The notes under the pieces are model-generated. The model searched no databases. It saw only the letters and a program-made list of their open reading frames with translations, and had not been told where the DNA came from. Positions 18,111 through 50,410 of a DNA stretch of 64,000 bases are shown one piece after another (within the stretch, counting starts at the first letter, position 1; the number at the start of each line of letters is the position of its first letter). The DNA lies in contig OU015490.1 of assembly GCA_907164885.2 (NCBI GenBank), forward strand, positions 11,275,466 to 11,339,465, written 5' to 3'. This DNA is from Dolomedes plantarius (Eukaryota; Arthropoda; Arachnida; Araneae; Dolomedidae). A program made the position numbers and the translations under genes.

Positions 18111-18571
18111 CAATACTCAGTGTGTGAAAGCATTTTAGCCCTTTCTGCTTGTTTTTTAATTACGTTTCAGTGTTTTTGGTCCTCTTTTGAATGCTTTTGC
18201 ACTTTAATTTCGGCATCACAAATTCTGGTAGGGTCGATTTTACGGAGGGCTGCTCGCATATTTGATCCAGGATTAATTCCCATTGCCTCTGTCCCCTTTG
18301 TGGGGCTATACATGCAATCATTAAAGCAGATTACAGCATCCATAACGTCAATTTTTAGAGTTTTGATGCTCAGGAATTTAGTTTTGGGCAACCGTTCCCA
18401 AACACAACTGTTAAATGACTTATTCGTGTTTTGAGTACATCCATGCATACACTTTTGCAGAAGCCTTTTATCTGTAAGGCTTCTAAAAACTGGCTTTATT
18501 GCTGTCAAAACTGCTTCAGGCATTGAATGACTATGGGAATATGCCTCACCCATTTCTTTTCCCCTATTATA

Positions 18572-19283
18572 CCCCAGTCAAAATAGACCCGATTTTGACG
18601 AATGGCTAAAGAAGTATGAAAGTTTTGAAAATTGGTGGAGATGTTTGTTTCAGCATGTTAATGAACATACTAAAAGTCCCCACCGATCAGACTTGAGCTT
18701 TCGCCGCCATCTCGGAAAATGTGTAGACTTTTTGTTTATTTGCAAGTAACTTCAGAAATATAGATTTTATGTAAAAAAATTTAATACAAAAATTGAAGAG
18801 CATTAAATTATGAACAAGAACATGATTTACTTTTTTTTATAAGTCTAACACGAACAAAGATAATTGATTTTTGAATATAGCGAACAATCACGCGTAGGAC
18901 GCGGATGGGCGGGTCATCCCCATCGCTATGGGCGGATGACCCGCGTATATGCCCCAAAAATCTTGCACACTCACGTGTGTCAAATCTCTATATATCAAAG
19001 CTCGAAATAAAGTTGCAGCAACATCCAAACCATTGTTATCAGGTTGTATTGTGAGGCTTCGTGGATTCTGTCTTTTTATGTCATACTTAGACTGCATTGG
19101 GTACATAATGTCTGGAAGTGGGTAAAAATAAATACTAAATTTGATGTATGCAACTACGTCTGTAGCAAAAACGTTGCCTGGCCATGCATACGCTAGAAAA
19201 ATCCTAGATTATTTATTTACCCAAACAGCTTTAGCAAAATAAATTTTGAAGCCATGGATATATCTGATTTCAAAAGCAATAAT
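18572..19283 (+). repeat. left terminal inverted repeat (~712 bp)
   Basis: Inverted match of 21385-22083. Besides terminal sequence it contains sense coding sequence of the carried gene from about 18960 onward (VRLRGFCLFMSY and GYIMSGSG at 19051-19125, then GHAYARKIL). Confidence 0.92.
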
Positions 19284-20866
19284 CTCTATGAGTTGTTTAG
19301 AGATATTGCTACTGAACTACTATCACTAGAAACCATATATGGACATACTCTTTTACAAGAGACATCGAGATTAAAATGAGGAAGACTTTGAAGCAGTTGA
19401 AAGAAAATGGCCCAACTTCAGCTCTCTGGGTTCGGAACTTTGAAATGGCAAAGCTTATGAAAGCTTGATCACCGTCTATTGTGCGGTGAAAGTAAACGGT
19501 TTCAATACATTAGTAAACCCGTTGTTGCTTTTTCATAGGATAGAGATTGTTAAACAAAACGACGAAGAAACGAGTAGCATTTTATTTAGAATATGAGTTA
19601 GTTCATTTTACATTTGCTCTGTTTAATGAAGCTGGCATGCGAGAGACAACGACATTGGCTAGGTACGACGTTTTTGAAGTTCCAAACAAAGACCTTAACC
19701 TCCTGAACTGCGTCAACACTGTGGACAGTGGTTTTCTCCTACACCGTGTCAAATGGGGAACACAATAAACTTTTGCGGATGTTTGCACAAATTAAGTTAA
19801 CTATATAAAAAAAGCATTATGGGACCAGCTGTATAGTCGTTTTTAATGTCTAATCCAACACCAATAACAGTACAAAAAATTGAAGAAAATCTACGGTCTA
19901 TTATAATAAAATCTGTAGACATAAGTTTTGATGGAAACATGTGAGTTACTGTTCAACGATAACAGTTCCTTTCAAATGAAAACAACAAGAGCAAACTGAT
20001 CAGCATGCTATCAGCTGAGCTGGAAAACAGTGAGATTCGATTCCGACAATGTAATGACGAAGTCGACATTCTCTTTGTAAATACTGCAATTAATGAAGCA
20101 TGTTCTGGTAACAACATCGTTGTAATCATCGGTGAAGATGTTGACCACCTGGTTCTATTAACATCTCTCACTCCTACAGAAAAGACATTTTCCTTGTCAA
20201 AACATGCAAAGGGAAAGCAAAGAAAAAAATACATTCGTCAAATAAAATACCATCATCGGGACATACCAAAGTATCCTTTTTCTCCATGTGTTCAGTGGAT
20301 GCGATACTACTTCTGCAGCATTCAACAAAGGAAAGAAAAATTGTGTAAAAATGTTCCAATGTAAAGATATGGAACACGACGTGACAGTAGTTAATAAATG
20401 CAACTCATTGCATAATGATGTTGCTTAAGCAGGAGAATGCTTTTTTCTGATCTGGTATGGAGCACAGCCCAGTGAAAAGTCCCTAAATAAGTTTAGGTGC
20501 AAATGCTTCGCAAAAAATGTCACTAAAATAAAACCATATATTTCGTCTCTTCCCTGAACTGAAGAGGTAGCCATGCGACATCCCTTTCGGTTGTATCACC
20601 AAGTGCAAAAGTGGTTTGGGAATGAGTAGAATTCTGAAGTGTGGGCTGGAAATGTCAAAAAAAAACCCTCGTGCCCATCACAACTATGGATGCAGTGGCT
20701 CCCGTTTCAGTTTTATGCATGGTGTTTCACAACTGTAAGAATTACTGGGGAGAAAGATGTGTGGGTCGGAAAGAAACATCAACTGCGCAACGGCCTACAA
20801 TAACTGCAATGGGGTATGTCACAATGACATACCCCATTGCAGTTATTGCACTGTAGATCATGAGGA
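18960..20866 (+). pseudogene. CXC-domain / PIN-like transposon protein, broken
   Basis: In order on the plus strand: VRLRGFCLFMSYLDCIGYIM (19051), AKTLPGHAYARKIL (~19160), ENGPTSALWVRNFEMAKLM (~19405), PNKDLNLLNCVNTVDSGFLL (~19685), then IGEDVDHLVLLTSLTPTEK (~20130). In another frame HVFSGCDTTSAAFNKGK follows (~20290) and finally a Cys-rich tail (HNCKNYWGERCVGRK, CNGVCHND; 20730-20830). This series matches a large protein family found in many arthropods and cnidarians, sometimes annotated as Tesmin/TSO1-like CXC domain protein. The acidic GEDVD and GCD motifs resemble PIN/XPG nucleases; that function is an inference. Frameshifts and stops are numerous. The N-terminal part expected upstream is absent, so the copy is truncated at the 5' side. 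Confidence 0.75.
20798..20848. repeat. perfect 24-bp palindrome with 3-nt loop
   Basis: Arms 20798-20821 and 20825-20848 are exact complements (arm begins CAATAACTGCAATGG) around CAA. It sits in the Cys-rich tail of the carried pseudogene, at the point where family similarity ends. Confidence 0.95.
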
Positions 20867-21384
20867 TCCAATAAAAGGAACTAATTAATGAGGTGGTGCC
20901 AGCTGACCCATAGACAATCTTTTTAAGACTGACGACGCGAACAATCCCGTACCGAAAAAAGCACGACAACCATAAAGTAGGTAAGCTTAAAAAATATATA
21001 CAATGAAAATATAGTAGTGAATAAATCCAAGTTTATTACATTCGTTCATAAAATTAAAAATGATCAACTATATACATACCAAAAAACATTAGTCTATTTT
21101 CTTGTGTTTAAAAATAGCCCAAATGATGTAGGGGAGAGAATTCAAAGGAAAACGACTGCAACGAGACTTGGACGCTACATTCATAATCAACCCGCATTTA
21201 ATAGTCAATATTTTGTTCGAGTTAGGATTGCGACAAAATGTATTTAATATTTTATGTACACAATTTAATGTTCTTTAATTTTTGTACAAAACTTTTTTTA
21301 CATAAAGATAATATTTCCCAAGTTATTTGAAAAAACACAAAATAGGCCTTCAAAATCTTAAAAGCAATAATCTCCATGAGTTGT

Positions 21385-22083
21385 TTATTGCTTTTAAAAT
21401 CAGATATATCCATGGCGTCAAAATTTATTTTTGCTAAAGCTGTTTGGGTAAATAAATAAGCTAGGATTTTTCTAGCGTATGCATGGCTAGGCAACGTTTT
21501 TGCTACTGATGTAGTTGCATACATCAAATTTAGTATTTATTTTTACCCACCTCCAGCCATTATGTACCCAATGCAGCCTAAGTATGACATAAAAAGATAG
21601 AATCCACCAAGCCTCACAATACAACCTGATAACAATGGTTTGGATGTTGCTGCAAATTTCTTTCGAGATTTCATATGCAGAGGTTTGACAAACGTTAGTG
21701 TGCAAGACTTTTGGGGCACATGCGCGGGTCATCCCCCCATCGCGATGGGGATGACCCGCGCATCCGCGTCTTACGTGTGATTGTTCGCTATTTTCAAAGT
21801 CAATTATCTTTGTTCGTGTTAGACTTATAAAAAAACTAAATAATGTTTTGTTAATAATTTAATGCTCTTTAATTTTTTGTATAAAAATTTTTTTACACAA
21901 AATCAATATTTCTGAAGTTAATTGCAAAAAAACAAAAAAGTCTACACATTTTCCAAGATGGCGGCGAAAGCTCAAATCCGATCGGTGGGGACTTTTAGTA
22001 TGTTCAACATTATGCCCAAAAAACATCTCCACCAATTTTGAAAACTTTCATTTTTTTTAACCATAAAACCTATTTTGACTGGG
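21385..22083 (-). repeat. right terminal inverted repeat (~699 bp)
   Basis: Inverted copy of the left end. On the minus strand it encodes a second copy of the same protein segments (KEICSNIQTIVIR, SVAKTLPSHAYARKIL), so it is not the natural 3' end of the gene. Confidence 0.92.
21722..21770. repeat. GC-rich palindrome inside right TIR
   Basis: GCGCGGGTCATCCCC and its complement flank a CATCGCGATG core. A decayed version lies in the left arm at 18900-18947. Both stand out against the AT-rich background and are CpG-containing. Confidence 0.85.
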
Positions 22084-23563
22084 CTATTATAACCACACCA
22101 GCTTTCTGGACCAGTAGGGCAGAGGCCATGTTGTGTATGGTCATCTGTGGATAAACGGTGAAAATAAATTGCTCAAATTGATTTTGACATCTCATCCACA
22201 GACTTTTTCACATTTCACCTTATGGCTAAACCATAATAGTTCTGAAATTTGTTTATTTCAGAATCAGTTAATCGGCCACGTCCAGAAATACTCTTCCCAT
22301 CAGAAAGTTTTTGTGCTTTCAAGTTATTTTTTATGGATCTCAATCGTGACCCCATTATTTTCTGGACATGGCCAACGCATTCGAGTTTTTCCACTTTGGT
22401 GTCTTTCCCGTATACATTGGCCTCTGATACACTTAAAAAACCTTTAGAGTCACCATCACCGAAGTATTTAAAATAGCGCACGTTACGAGTAGCTTAGGAG
22501 CATTGTAAGATGCTCAAAGTCCCTGCCGCTTCCATCCCACCACTGAATCCATAAAAGTTTTTTTTCACAATCGTGGGAATCTGGAGTGCTATTCTTGCAC
22601 GAGAAACAAAACTTAATTAGTCACTCAAAATCCATCCCTTTTCTATTTTCAAGGGACGTAGCACATACAACCACATTGAGAGATGTATGATCCCATTTTT
22701 GCCACGTGCCATCCAGGCCAGCAACTATGTCCCTATTACCATTCTGCAATGCTACAGTTTTCTTTACAGCATTCATCATAGAGTTTAGAGATACAGTTGA
22801 TAATGAATTTATTATCTTGTATCTGTAGCGTTGAAACTTGGCAGGAAGAGGGGGTATGTTCATAACACCTTCCAATATGGTACAGATGTGTTAGACGCAC
22901 CTCATTGCCAAGTTGGCGATTTTTTTAAATTTGCAACCCAGTTTGAACCTAGTTGTGTGTGTTTGTTTACGTGATATAGTATGGCGGCCATTTTGTTGCG
23001 AAATATTAATGACGTATTTTGGGGATAGTATTAGATGTAGATTTTACTTTGGTGTTGCCAATTTGTGTTTTTGTTGCTTTTAGGATTTTGTTGTTGCCAG
23101 ATTCGGGTGTGTCTTGTGTTTTGCATCATTGAATGGTTTTTTTAACGTTCTTTAGTGTAGTTATATTATGTTGTGGCAACGGTTTTTGAATATTTCGTTT
23201 GTTTTAATTCAGATTTTAAGTTTCAGCTAGGATGCAGCTTGAATACAATAATCTGGTTGTATATTTCAATATATTTTTGTTCATTTATTTATTATCTGTT
23301 CAGTATTTAGTGTAATTTAGAAATATCAGGGGATTTTAGTGTCTAAAATAGAGGCGATATAATGGAAATAGATCGTTTGAATTTGTGCTGTAATATATGT
23401 TTAATGAAGAAATATATATTTAACCAAGGTGTTTTTTATGTTTATTTATATTAGTTATTATTAGTTGGACTGACTAGTTGTATTATACTGACGTTTTTAG
23501 CGAGTGGGCCGCCCACCTAACAAATTTCTCATTAATTTTAAGGTTTTAGTTTTTGTATTTATG

Positions 23564-23880
23564 CAGCCGTTTTTAGATATATGTTTTTTATACAGCCGTT
23601 TTTAGATACTTTTGTGTATGTTTTAAAGTAGCGGTTGAGCATTTCTATTTAGATTTTGAATTTTAATACAGCCGTTTTTAGATATATTTGCGTATGTTTT
23701 AAATAAGTGGTTGAGCATTTCTGTTGAGGTTTTGAAGTTTAATACAGCCGTTTTTAGATTTTTTGCGTGTTTTAAAGTAGCGGTTGAGCATTTCTGTTTA
23801 GGTTTTGAATTTTAATACAGCCGTTTTTAGATATATTCGTGTATGTTTTAAAGTAGCTGTTGTGGTTTTGTGACATGTTT
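23564..23880 (+). repeat. ~76-bp tandem repeat
   Basis: The phrase CAGCCGTTTTTAGAT recurs at 23564, 23593, 23669, 23745 and 23818. The last four are spaced 73-76 bp and are followed by AAAGTAGCGGTTGAGCATTT-type sequence. Confidence 0.9.
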
Positions 23881-23998
23881 TTGAAAGTTTATTATTACCA
23901 TTGGTAAGTTTGTTTTGAATTTATTTTTATATTTGAGTTGTTATTGATATTTTGTGTATATTTGTTATTTTAAGTGTAAAATGTCCGCGTAGGCCTGT

Positions 23999-24090
23999 TT
24001 TGGCGACAAGTTGGCGACAAGTTGGCGACAAAATTTTTTTGACGAGTATTTGGCGTCAAAACAATTTTGTCGCCAAATTGTCGCCAAGGG
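23999..24090. repeat. clustered GGCGACAA / TTGTCGCC motifs
   Basis: TTGGCGACAAG occurs three times in a row (24000-24033). Inverted TTGTCGCCAA occurs twice just before the right end (24067-24090). Possible subterminal transposase-binding array. Confidence 0.8.
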
Positions 24091-24939
24091 AGGTGCGTGT
24101 AATACATCTGTTCCCAAAATACATCTGCAGCTTTTCTGGCTTTACCTATACACCTCATGGCATATACTAGGCGAAAGTTTATAGCATACTCTGTGAAACA
24201 CTTGCGGATAATCTAGAACTCATAGATGATGTAGAATTTCTACATTTTAAACACGTAATCACTAAACTAATGGCTAATTATTTTCGACTTCCAACATCTA
24301 CATAAACGTCAAGACTATTTGAAGAACTACAGCTTTTACATGTTGAAACTGTATTAATTAAACAGCGAATAATATCAATTTCAATAATGATATTAGAGTT
24401 TCCTTTGAATAAATCTTCATTTGCATCTGAAGAATTTATTTTTTTCCCAGATGCACTCGTATTCATAAGTTCAGAATTGTCAACATTTTTTGCTCTGTTC
24501 CCCAGATTGCCGTAGTATTTCCTTTTACCGAATTTTTTAACTTGAAGCATGGCAAAACGAAGTAAAAATTAGCAAAATACAACAGTTAAAAGATGTATTG
24601 ATGAAAATATACTGACAACCTTTATCAGAAAGCTAAGAAATGAAATAAAACTGCGAGCGATAAAATATGACGCACGTGAATCAAAAGTGTAAACAACTCG
24701 CTTGAATGTCAGGAAAAAAACACACAGCTTGGGAGGTATACGTAACGTTAAAGTTGAAGTTAACATTCGGCGCGTTCGAAATCAAAATAAAAAAAGCAGT
24801 GTAAAAGTTTTAACAGGCAAAGGATTGAAAAAAATGTGTGGCCATTTAAATAGGCCTTTAAATACTCTGTTTACACTTTTAAACTTAACTTTTTTAGCGC
24901 TTTAAGGTTGAAAACTATATAAACTATGTATTTTCAGAA

Positions 24940-25420: not shown

Positions 25421-28251
<2,831 letters not shown>

Positions 28252-41010: not shown

Positions 41011-43990
41011 TTATTTTAATTTAAACTCATTATGTGGATGAAAATGCCTTAATCTGGTTGAGTGCACAATTTCACTCTTTTTCCCAGTGTATTGGTTTGG
41101 TTTATCAATTTCGAAATTAACATTCGACAGTTGGTTTAAAATTTTATAAAGGCCTGAGTAAGGTGGATCTAATTTTCTTTAATTTAGGTGTTTAAATTCT
41201 TCGTACATCACTAAGTCACCAATTTTAAAATTTGACTGTACAAAATGTCTGTCATATCTCTGTTTATTAATTTTGTGGTGCTGAATGGTTCTTTGTACCG
41301 CAACTGGCGGATAATTTAATGAAGTTGTTTTAGGCAATGGGGAGTCATATGGTAAATGTCCAAATAAAAGGTAAATCGGGGGGAATCCAGTTACACTATG
41401 TGGTTAGTTATTATATTCAGAAGTTACTTGCTCTAAAATTTTGGTCCATGGAGTTTTCTTCGAAGAAGTATTTACTTTACATCTTAATTTTGACACAATA
41501 GTTTGATTACATCTTTCATTTTTACAGTTACACTGAGGCCTATAGGCTGACGTGAGTAATTGTTTTGTATTGTGGTGTTTTAGGAATTTTTTAAACCTTG
41601 AGGAAGTAAATGCAGCATTTCTGTCACTTAATATTTGTTTGGGAACTTTAATTTTGAAAATTTGCTTTAAGCAGTTAGTATATGTCTCAGTTGTCACACT
41701 TTTAGAAGGAAAAGTCCAAATATATCTTGACGCATGATCAATGACCAGATAAAGATATTTTTAGTCGAGTTATAATAATTAAAACCTCCAATGGTAACAA
41801 CTGAAATTAGGTCAAACAGTTCATGGGTAACTGGCAGCTGCTCCATCAGGCAAAATATTTTCTGTGTTGATTTTTTGTTTTTCTGACATGTTTCACAACA
41901 ACGAACAAAATTTGCAATATCTATTATTATATCTTGCCGATAGTAAATAGGGGAAATTAATTGTAACATTTTTTTCACAGCCGGATCTCCAAATTTATCA
42001 TGTGCAGAAGTTAATAATTTTAGTTTTAATGATGGCGGAACTACAATTTTGACTAGATTTTTCTTTCTCACTGTTAAAACTGAATTATATTTTTTGTACT
42101 TTATATTGTTTACATTATCATTTAATTGTGCTTGAATAATTTCATCTGTGCTTAAAAAATAACAATATTGGGATACAAAGTGGCTTATAGGATTTCTTGA
42201 TAGCATATCAGCTTCATAATTATATTTACCTTTTATGTCTATTATCTCATAATCATATATGGAGAGTTTTAAAGACCATCTCAACAGTCGTCCAGTTAAA
42301 TATCTAACATTTTTGAGCCATTGCAAGGCTGAATGATCCGAATGAATTGTGAATTTTTCCCATGCAAGTAACAATGGTATTTATCAATAGAGTCAATTAT
42401 AGCCAAACATTCGAGTTCAGTGGTAGCATGGTTTTTTTCATGTTTCTTTAATTGTCTGGAATGAAAAGCAATTGGGTGTAGTTGACCATCACGATGTTTT
42501 TGTTTTAAGACAGCAGTAACTGCTTCTTGACTCGCGTCTACAAAAAGGTGACATGGATAATCTGGGTTAAATAAAGTTAAAATTGGTTTTGAAATGAGCT
42601 TATCTTTTAATCTCAGATACGAATTTTGACATTCTTGGGACCAATCCCATTTTAAATCAATGTTTAACAATTTGTTTAGGGGGAGTCTTAATTTTGCATA
42701 GTCTTGTATAAATTTTTGGTAAACATTTATTGAGCCTAAAAATCTTTGCAATTCCTTTACATTTCTTGGCGGTAATAATTTTCTAATGGTTTCAATGTTT
42801 GTATTATGTGGAAAGTATTTTCCTTGTGTTATTTCACAACCTAAGAATTTGATTTATTTTTGTGCAAATTGGCATTTAGCTTTATTTAACTTAATGTTTT
42901 CCTGCTGACAAATTTTGAAAATTTTCTCTAAATGTCCCATGTGTTCAAGAAAAGTGTTTGAGAAAATTATTATACCATCGAAGTAGTTAAGGGCAAAATT
43001 TATTTGGTGTTTATTTAGAATTTGTCGTATTGCTCTTTCATCTATTTGTCGTTTAATTATAGCATTTTCTACTTGGGATGCATGATATGGCCTCTGTGAT
43101 ACTCGTAATTCTGACGTTAAAACGATTTTTTGGGGTTCTAATCTAATCTTGCCAACATTGTATTTGTTTTTATAAAAAATGTGTTCGAAATTTTTGAAAA
43201 TTTTGTCTAATTGGGTCCAGTATTTGTTCTGGTGGCTTTGAGTCAAAAACATCACCGGGCTCTTTAAACAGAGTGTTCAGTGTATCATCGGGGATACCTG
43301 ATGTCTCCTTATAATTTAGAACATCTCAATCATTATTTTTTACACTTTGAAAAATTTCAATTTTGACATTAGACTTGCTCATGCTCTGATTTTGGTCATA
43401 AATCGATGTGTCACATTTATTAACTAAAACAGTTTCAATACTTTGGTTTACACAATTTCTCTTTTTACATTTCTAGGATTTAGCTCAAGAGAGTGACCAT
43501 GTCTTAATTTTTTTCTCTTTTGAAAATTACTTCTTCTACAAAAATTTTTTATGTTATAAAAATTCTTAGTACCATAAAAATTTCTACATTTATACACATT
43601 ATTATTGACCCTTCTTAATTTATACATACAATCATGAGCATAATACTTATTTTCATTATACAAATTTTCACCATTATTTTCAAAGTACTTATTTTGAACA
43701 TGAAATGCTATAGGACTTAAAAATTTATAATCATCATACAACTTTATCTCATAACCAAATTGATACACTCTTAAATTTCTAAAATTAACATCTAATTTAA
43801 ATAACTGAATATGTTGTAAACTCAATAATAAATAAGGTAACTCACTATCAATTATCAGAATTTCAATTTTTCTTTTAACACTTCCTATTTTTACTGCACA
43901 TTCTATTAAATTTGGCACAATTACATTACCAACATTTTGCTTTATTAATACATTCTTACTTTCTTTTTCATGAAATTTTTTAATTAGCAA
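41011..43990 (-). pseudogene. pol: gypsy pol pseudogene (protease linker, RT, RNase H, integrase)
   Basis: Minus strand. The aspartic-protease region survives as a decayed linker (LIIDSELPYLLL, near 43850). RT is internally deleted: VENAIIKRQIDE jumps to ALNYFDGIIIFSN, where the catalytic YxDD box reads YFDG. Then KFLGCEITQGKYF and RFLGSINVYQKFI lead to RNase H (HLFVDASQEAV, ATTELECLAIID). Integrase follows: a zinc-binding HHCC domain with the second His replaced (HDKFGD...CCETCQ), FDLISVVTIGG (Asp changed to Val), LSDRNAAFTS (second Asp) and NCKNERCNQT (Glu). A C-terminal GPY/F-like PPYSGLYKIL and a stop at 41011-41013 end it. Several frameshifts; no activity possible. Confidence 0.92.
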
Positions 43991-49651: not shown

Positions 49652-50410
49652 TACACTTTCTGGACAAAAGTATCCGGCCGCCCAGTGATACGGACTCGGA
49701 AAGTACAGAGGCATATATTAATATGATGTTGGTCCTCCTTTTGCATCGATGACACCCTGCACACGTCTGGGGAGAATTTCCACCAGTTTTTGATAGTTGT
49801 CCATAGGAATTGATTTCCAGGCGTCCATCACAGGTGAAGTGAGTGCTGGCAGTGAGGATGGTCTATTTGGCTGGCTACGTAATCTGCGTTCTTATTCGTC
49901 CCAAAGGTTTTCAATGGAATTGAGACAGAGGTGAGAACTACAGTCCAGTTTTTGAACACTCATTTCATCAAGCCATGCCTGCGCAAGTCTCGATGTGTGA
50001 ATGGAGCAGTTATCCTGCTCAAAGAGAAATGGGCCTTCCGCGAAAGCTTGCTATAGAGTTGGGAGAGCAGCATTGTCCAGAATGTGTTCCCAACCACAGG
50101 GACTAAGGAACCCAGGCCAAACCCTGAAAAACACCCCCACACCATGATGCTGCCACCACCAAACTTAACAGTCGGCACAACACAGTCACGTAAGAAGCAC
50201 TCGCCGGGCATCCGCCAAACCCAGACGCGTCCATAGGACTGCCAAATTGTAAAGCGAGATTCATCACTCCAAAGAACATTTTTCCACATGTCCACAGTCC
50301 AATGAAGGTGAGCTTTGCACCATTGCAATCGACGCTTCGCATTCTGGGAAATGATGTTCGGCCTGTGAGTGGCTGAACGACCTTGGAATCCCAGTCATCG
50401 TGTTCTGAGC
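49652..50410 (-). mobile_element. Tc1-like transposon, 5' end truncated
   Basis: The terminal CACTTTCTGGACAAAAGTAT with TA (49652-49653) marks the end downstream of the transposase. The opposite end is missing: similarity stops near 50410. The family terminus reappears only in the separate short element at 51012-51502. Confidence 0.8.
49715..50345 (-). pseudogene. Tc1 transposase C-terminal two thirds, frameshifted
   Basis: Minus strand from about 50345: [20 protein letters not shown] then DESRF (first catalytic Asp), [15 protein letters not shown], and in shifted frames [19 protein letters not shown] (second Asp), SIENLWDE (Glu) and the tail KLVEILPRRVQGVIDAKGGP. The SPDLNPIE box is decayed to a form lacking Pro and Asp. 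The N-terminal DNA-binding domain is absent. Confidence 0.85.

Follow-up and report, generated by a model that had tools for sequence, protein, structure and literature searches.

The 64,000-nucleotide stretch of Dolomedes plantarius DNA analysed here (the window; positions 11,275,466 to 11,339,465 of contig OU015490.1, assembly GCA_907164885.2) contains a 3517-bp transposable element that is inserted in a Mutator-like transposase gene and flanked by a 3-bp target site duplication (TSD), TTA. The element has long terminal inverted repeats (TIRs) and encloses the remnants of a protein that consists of a putative DDE-like transposase half, an XPG/FEN1-like nuclease and a C-terminal CXC (Cys-rich) region. 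It represents a new non-autonomous family of an already known transposon group, very probably the AcademX lineage of the Academ superfamily, a class assigned from the published description of AcademX. The element, its duplicated target and the interrupted gene are arranged as follows:

18570..22086, no strand assigned: whole element, 3517 bp, with the termini TACCCCAGTC...GACTGGGCTA (sharp TA start in 18 copies; empty-site paralogues)
18567..18569, plus strand: left copy of the TSD, TTA (border word, empty sites, 3-bp repeats)
22087..22089, plus strand: right copy of the TSD, TTA (same evidence)
22090..22493, minus strand: upstream part of the interrupted gene, a Mutator-like transposase (the translated piece 22218-22493 matches PF20700 at E 5.2e-16; joined frame)
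18170..18569, minus strand: host gene, downstream side, same frame (161-codon joined frame)

The segment 18570-22086 is a real insertion. The original prediction, made from the letters of the window, placed it within a Mutator-like transposase gene whose frame is restored upon removal, and both parts hold: the flank piece on the minus strand matches PF20700, and the joined flanks form a single frame of 161 codons (...GPESWCGYNRGKEMGEAYSHSH...), for which a Pfam scan of the 161-aa piece by itself matched no family. In the 2.78-Gb genome assembly, 40 matches to the right flank were scored, the window included, and the 71 bases across the site were fetched for 12 of these. The empty site, a search for which had been proposed, is found within the same genome in all 12 fetched paralogues of the flank. 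In each the site is uninterrupted; one (L059) reproduces the predicted empty site letter for letter across CCCCTATTATAACC, and the other 11 differ from it by substitutions only.

The Mutator-like gene appears to be interrupted by a second insertion, at 22879-24114. It has 25-nt inverted arms (GGTACAGATGTGTTAGACGCACCTC / GAGGTGCGTGTAATACATCTGTTCC, 88%), and its interior contains TTGGCGACAAG repeats as well as a 76-bp tandem array at 23585-23862.

The word CTATTATA is indeed identical at 18564-18571 and 22084-22091, as first reported; it had been taken for an 8-bp TSD, with an element at 18564..22091. Comparison with other copies in the genome retains the insertion and corrects its borders to 18570-22086. 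Among the 20 long loci fetched, three (L045, L047, L049) are without a right end and were excluded, so that the border counts refer to 17 copies and the window copy. At the left border, T and A are each present in 18/18 copies, and conservation begins sharply at this TA; at the right border, T is present in 18/18, A in 17/18, and the following G in 17/18. The TA with the adjacent C/G is part of the element in 17-18 of the 18 copies. Outside TA...TA, 13/18 copies have an exact 3-bp direct repeat, compared with a fraction of 0.075 for left-right pairs drawn from different copies, and the 3-bp prediction was confirmed in 4/4 further copies with both ends known (TCT, AAA, TAT and CAT). With conservation bounded by TA and the 3-bp repeats found beyond these bounds, the element spans 18570-22086, and TTA is the TSD of the window copy. 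The apparent 8-bp word arises because TTA is preceded by CTA and followed by TA in the host, and the element itself starts with TA and has CTA at its end.

An 8-bp TSD, as in P, hAT, Zisupton or MULE (Mutator-like element)-like transposons, would account for the exact word on both sides of the window copy and for the restored frame. However, in the register of that word all eight bases match in the window copy only, with 1 to 5 matching bases in the others (0/17 at 8/8), and all 17 other two-ended copies thus lack an 8-bp duplication, the outcome that the original prediction had itself named as contrary to it. Moreover, the TA and adjacent C/G belong to the element, and a 3-bp TSD predicts the same empty site. 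Frame restoration is sound evidence of mobility and blind to TSD length, because removal of 18570-22089 and of 18572-22091 leaves an identical join. An 8-bp TSD is therefore hardly credible. A 2-bp TA duplication of the Tc1/mariner-like kind, with five further bases matching by chance, is barely more so: TA is present at both ends in 17/18 copies, but the join that it predicts is 5 bp longer than the observed empty sites, which fit the 3-bp join, and the 3-bp repeats outside TA...TA (13/18 and 4/4) would be left unexplained. Given the empty sites and these repeats, TA as the TSD was rejected, and so was a 9-bp TSD with one mismatch.

Some copies weigh against a 3-bp TSD, in that the exact repeat is absent in 5/18 (L033, L048, L037, L046 and L050). 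The repeats of L033 and L048 match at 2/3 bases and that of L050 at 0/3; the right TA is mutated in L037. L046 lies within an AT repeat, where even lengths (4, 6, 8) match, and this is also the setting in which it matches 8/8 in the 3-bp register. The case illustrates a trap in assigning a class when one copy is considered alone: a 3-bp TSD together with matching letters of element and host can mimic an 8-bp TSD.

A consensus was built from 11 of the 18 two-ended copies, which show 95.6-97.6% identity to it (95.6% for the window copy). Inverted repeats of about 0.7 kb inside the borders, together with the empty sites in paralogues, bear out the predicted mobile unit with long TIRs:

18570..19282, plus strand: left long TIR, approximate (inverted arms I1, I2, I5, I7, I9, I13)
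21385..22086, minus strand: right long TIR, approximate (inverted arms)
21255-21342: additional incomplete copy of the outer TIR portion, adjoining the right TIR (inverted arms I6, I8)

Most other two-ended copies probably have the same third partial copy, to judge from matches of the terminus query at inner positions. Longer copies were considered as possible ancestors and rejected: the extra DNA in L035, L037 and L042 consists of Tc1-like or similar insertions, as judged by eye without a family scan. These three are family copies carrying insertions that, by eye, encode Tc1-like transposases; extra DNA is also present in L041 and L043.

The PIN-like/CXC protein that the element was said to carry is present as remnants, which were mapped by tblastn of two relatives, P0029 and P0027, against the window copy and the 11-copy consensus (E <= 1):

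18949..19251, plus strand: DDE-like transposase remnant, P0029 residues ~240-341, inside the left TIR
19361..19462, plus strand: remnant of residues ~376-409
19426..19825, plus strand: remnant covering residues ~611-746, where the XPG/FEN1-like nuclease begins
19882..20160, plus strand: XPG/FEN1-like nuclease remnant, GEDVDHLVLL region (also from the fold of relatives)
20270..20647, plus strand: XPG/FEN1-like nuclease remnant, FSGCDTTSA region, in another frame, with stops
20644..20871, plus strand: remnant running into the C-terminal CXC region, end approximate
20798..20848, no strand assigned: perfect 24-bp hairpin within the CXC-coding remnant (inverted arm I10)
21366..21713, minus strand: inverted second copy of residues ~242-357, located almost entirely in the right TIR

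The long TIRs contain transposase-coding sequence, as follows from this inverted second copy at the right TIR. In the consensus, P0029 matches over residues 242-409 and, with gaps, 629-1098; in the window copy, parts of 240-1056 are matched and the frames are broken. Residues 1-239 have no match in either, and residues 410-628, which include the third putative catalytic residue, E415, have none in the consensus. The second putative catalytic aspartate, D250, conserved in 24/24 relatives, is replaced by valine in the window copy. On the CXC side, the window copy is matched to 20739 by P0029 and to 20760 by P0027, and the consensus to ~20871. Two pieces of the element itself, scanned against Pfam, gave no match.

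Of 7996 candidates scored for the XPG+CXC protein, 594 are relatives at E <= 1e-5. Among the 120 matches listed of these, all organism-named relatives are from arthropods, and the longest have at least ~1050-1170 aa. Within the D. plantarius genome, the nuclease piece yields 150 scored matches from 3166 candidates, and full-length stop-free matches are found at no fewer than four sites (among them C1:140204608-140207922 and C10:81926015-81929329), whose open frames measure 1319-1641 aa; this search scored 42 of 11886 candidates. In the relatives, D84/D87, D250 and E415 are conserved and map to strands or a helix in the structural model, and the N-terminal half may be a DDE catalytic domain; the window copy is without these residues. 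A table of 41 relatives, chosen mostly for length, contains a weak match to DUF6589 in 4/41 and to XPG_N in 1/41, and no helicase family, a negative that covers these proteins and not the whole length of autonomous elements.

AcademX, a lineage reportedly defined by Kojima in 2020, encodes an XPG-type nuclease. PMC10045372, whose wording is "nuclease", gives TSDs of 3 or 4 bp for AcademX and 9 or 10 bp for AcademH and ties the two to the encoded nuclease and helicase, respectively; PMC4455052 gives the Repbase rule for non-autonomous families as the same TSD length plus terminal alignment. The window element has nuclease remnants, its relatives have the nuclease fold, and the TSDs are exactly 3 bp in 13/18 and 4/4 copies, which departs from AcademH and, as seen above, from hAT, P, Zisupton and Tc1/mariner-like elements. 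The original prediction was right about the protein and left the class unsettled; with fair confidence it can now be assigned to Academ, on the strength of the DDE-like N-terminal half, the nuclease of XPG/FEN1 type and the length of the TSD, and the lineage probably corresponds to the AcademX of the literature.

Several points count against this assignment. The comparison with AcademX draws on its published description, and the putative autonomous copies are represented by their open frames. The DUF6589 matches fall below Pfam's cut-offs, and four unrelated families also match once each among the 41 relatives, in what look like chance hits. In each fold search, the best 50 rows are 5' nucleases of the FEN1/EXO1/XPG/XRN kind; the N-terminal half is without an RNase H match because the nuclease filled these lists. 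The protein might instead belong to a separate superfamily near Academ that also produces 3-bp TSDs, given that the sole match above cut-off in 14 relatives scanned is STPRs, at the N-terminus of P0018; this is unlikely, since the nuclease and TSD length agree with AcademX as described in the literature. A slightly better, still doubtful, proposition is that the XPG+CXC protein marks a lineage of its own, related to Academ, whose ends are of the TA[C/G]CCCAGTC type and whose TSDs are near-strictly 3 bp, and in which non-autonomous families grow long TIRs by copying transposase-coding sequence into both ends.

Under the AcademX assignment, the ancestor would have encoded one large protein in which a DDE transposase at the N-terminus is followed by a FEN1/XPG-like nuclease and, at the C-terminus, a CXC region, and the window element would be an internally deleted, long-TIR derivative. 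A full-length AcademX-type transposase, which the full-length open frames of the same genome could supply, would most likely bind the TACCCCAGTC ends in trans; the element would be cut out and joined to a 3-bp staggered target cut (cut-and-paste), and repair at the staggered joints would produce the TTA duplication. Trimming of 5' flaps or gaps at the joints by the nuclease is a speculative guess. The assignment offers a likely home for the protein that databases record for several arthropods as "uncharacterized", "Tesmin/TSO1-like CXC" or "Protein asteroid"; a literature search (titles and abstract openings, part of the results off topic) did not find the XPG/CXC protein described as a transposon.

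Elsewhere in the window, transposon pieces are found at 27311-27778, 41694-42853 and 49960-50394 (minus strand): CENP-B/Tc5-type, retroelement RNase H and integrase parts, and Tc3-type.

Compared with known systems, the element resembles AcademX in being a nuclease-bearing transposon with a short TSD (3 bp here, 3 or 4 bp in AcademX) and in that its protein's relatives are single large DDE-like plus XPG-like proteins; it differs in that the window copy, deleted and frameshifted, stands for a non-autonomous family with transposase-coding sequence in its ~0.7-kb TIRs. The CXC tail and the TACCCCAGTC termini stand outside the comparison. AcademH is placed in the same superfamily in the literature but, according to PMC10045372, has a helicase instead of the nuclease and 9-10 bp TSDs. 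Unlike the FEN1, EXO1 and XPG nucleases, to which it shows 10-18% identity in the fold-search rows, the nuclease of the relatives is fused to a transposase-like half and CXC. Mutator-like elements (PF20700) are the class of the gene that hosts the insertion, not that of the inserted element.
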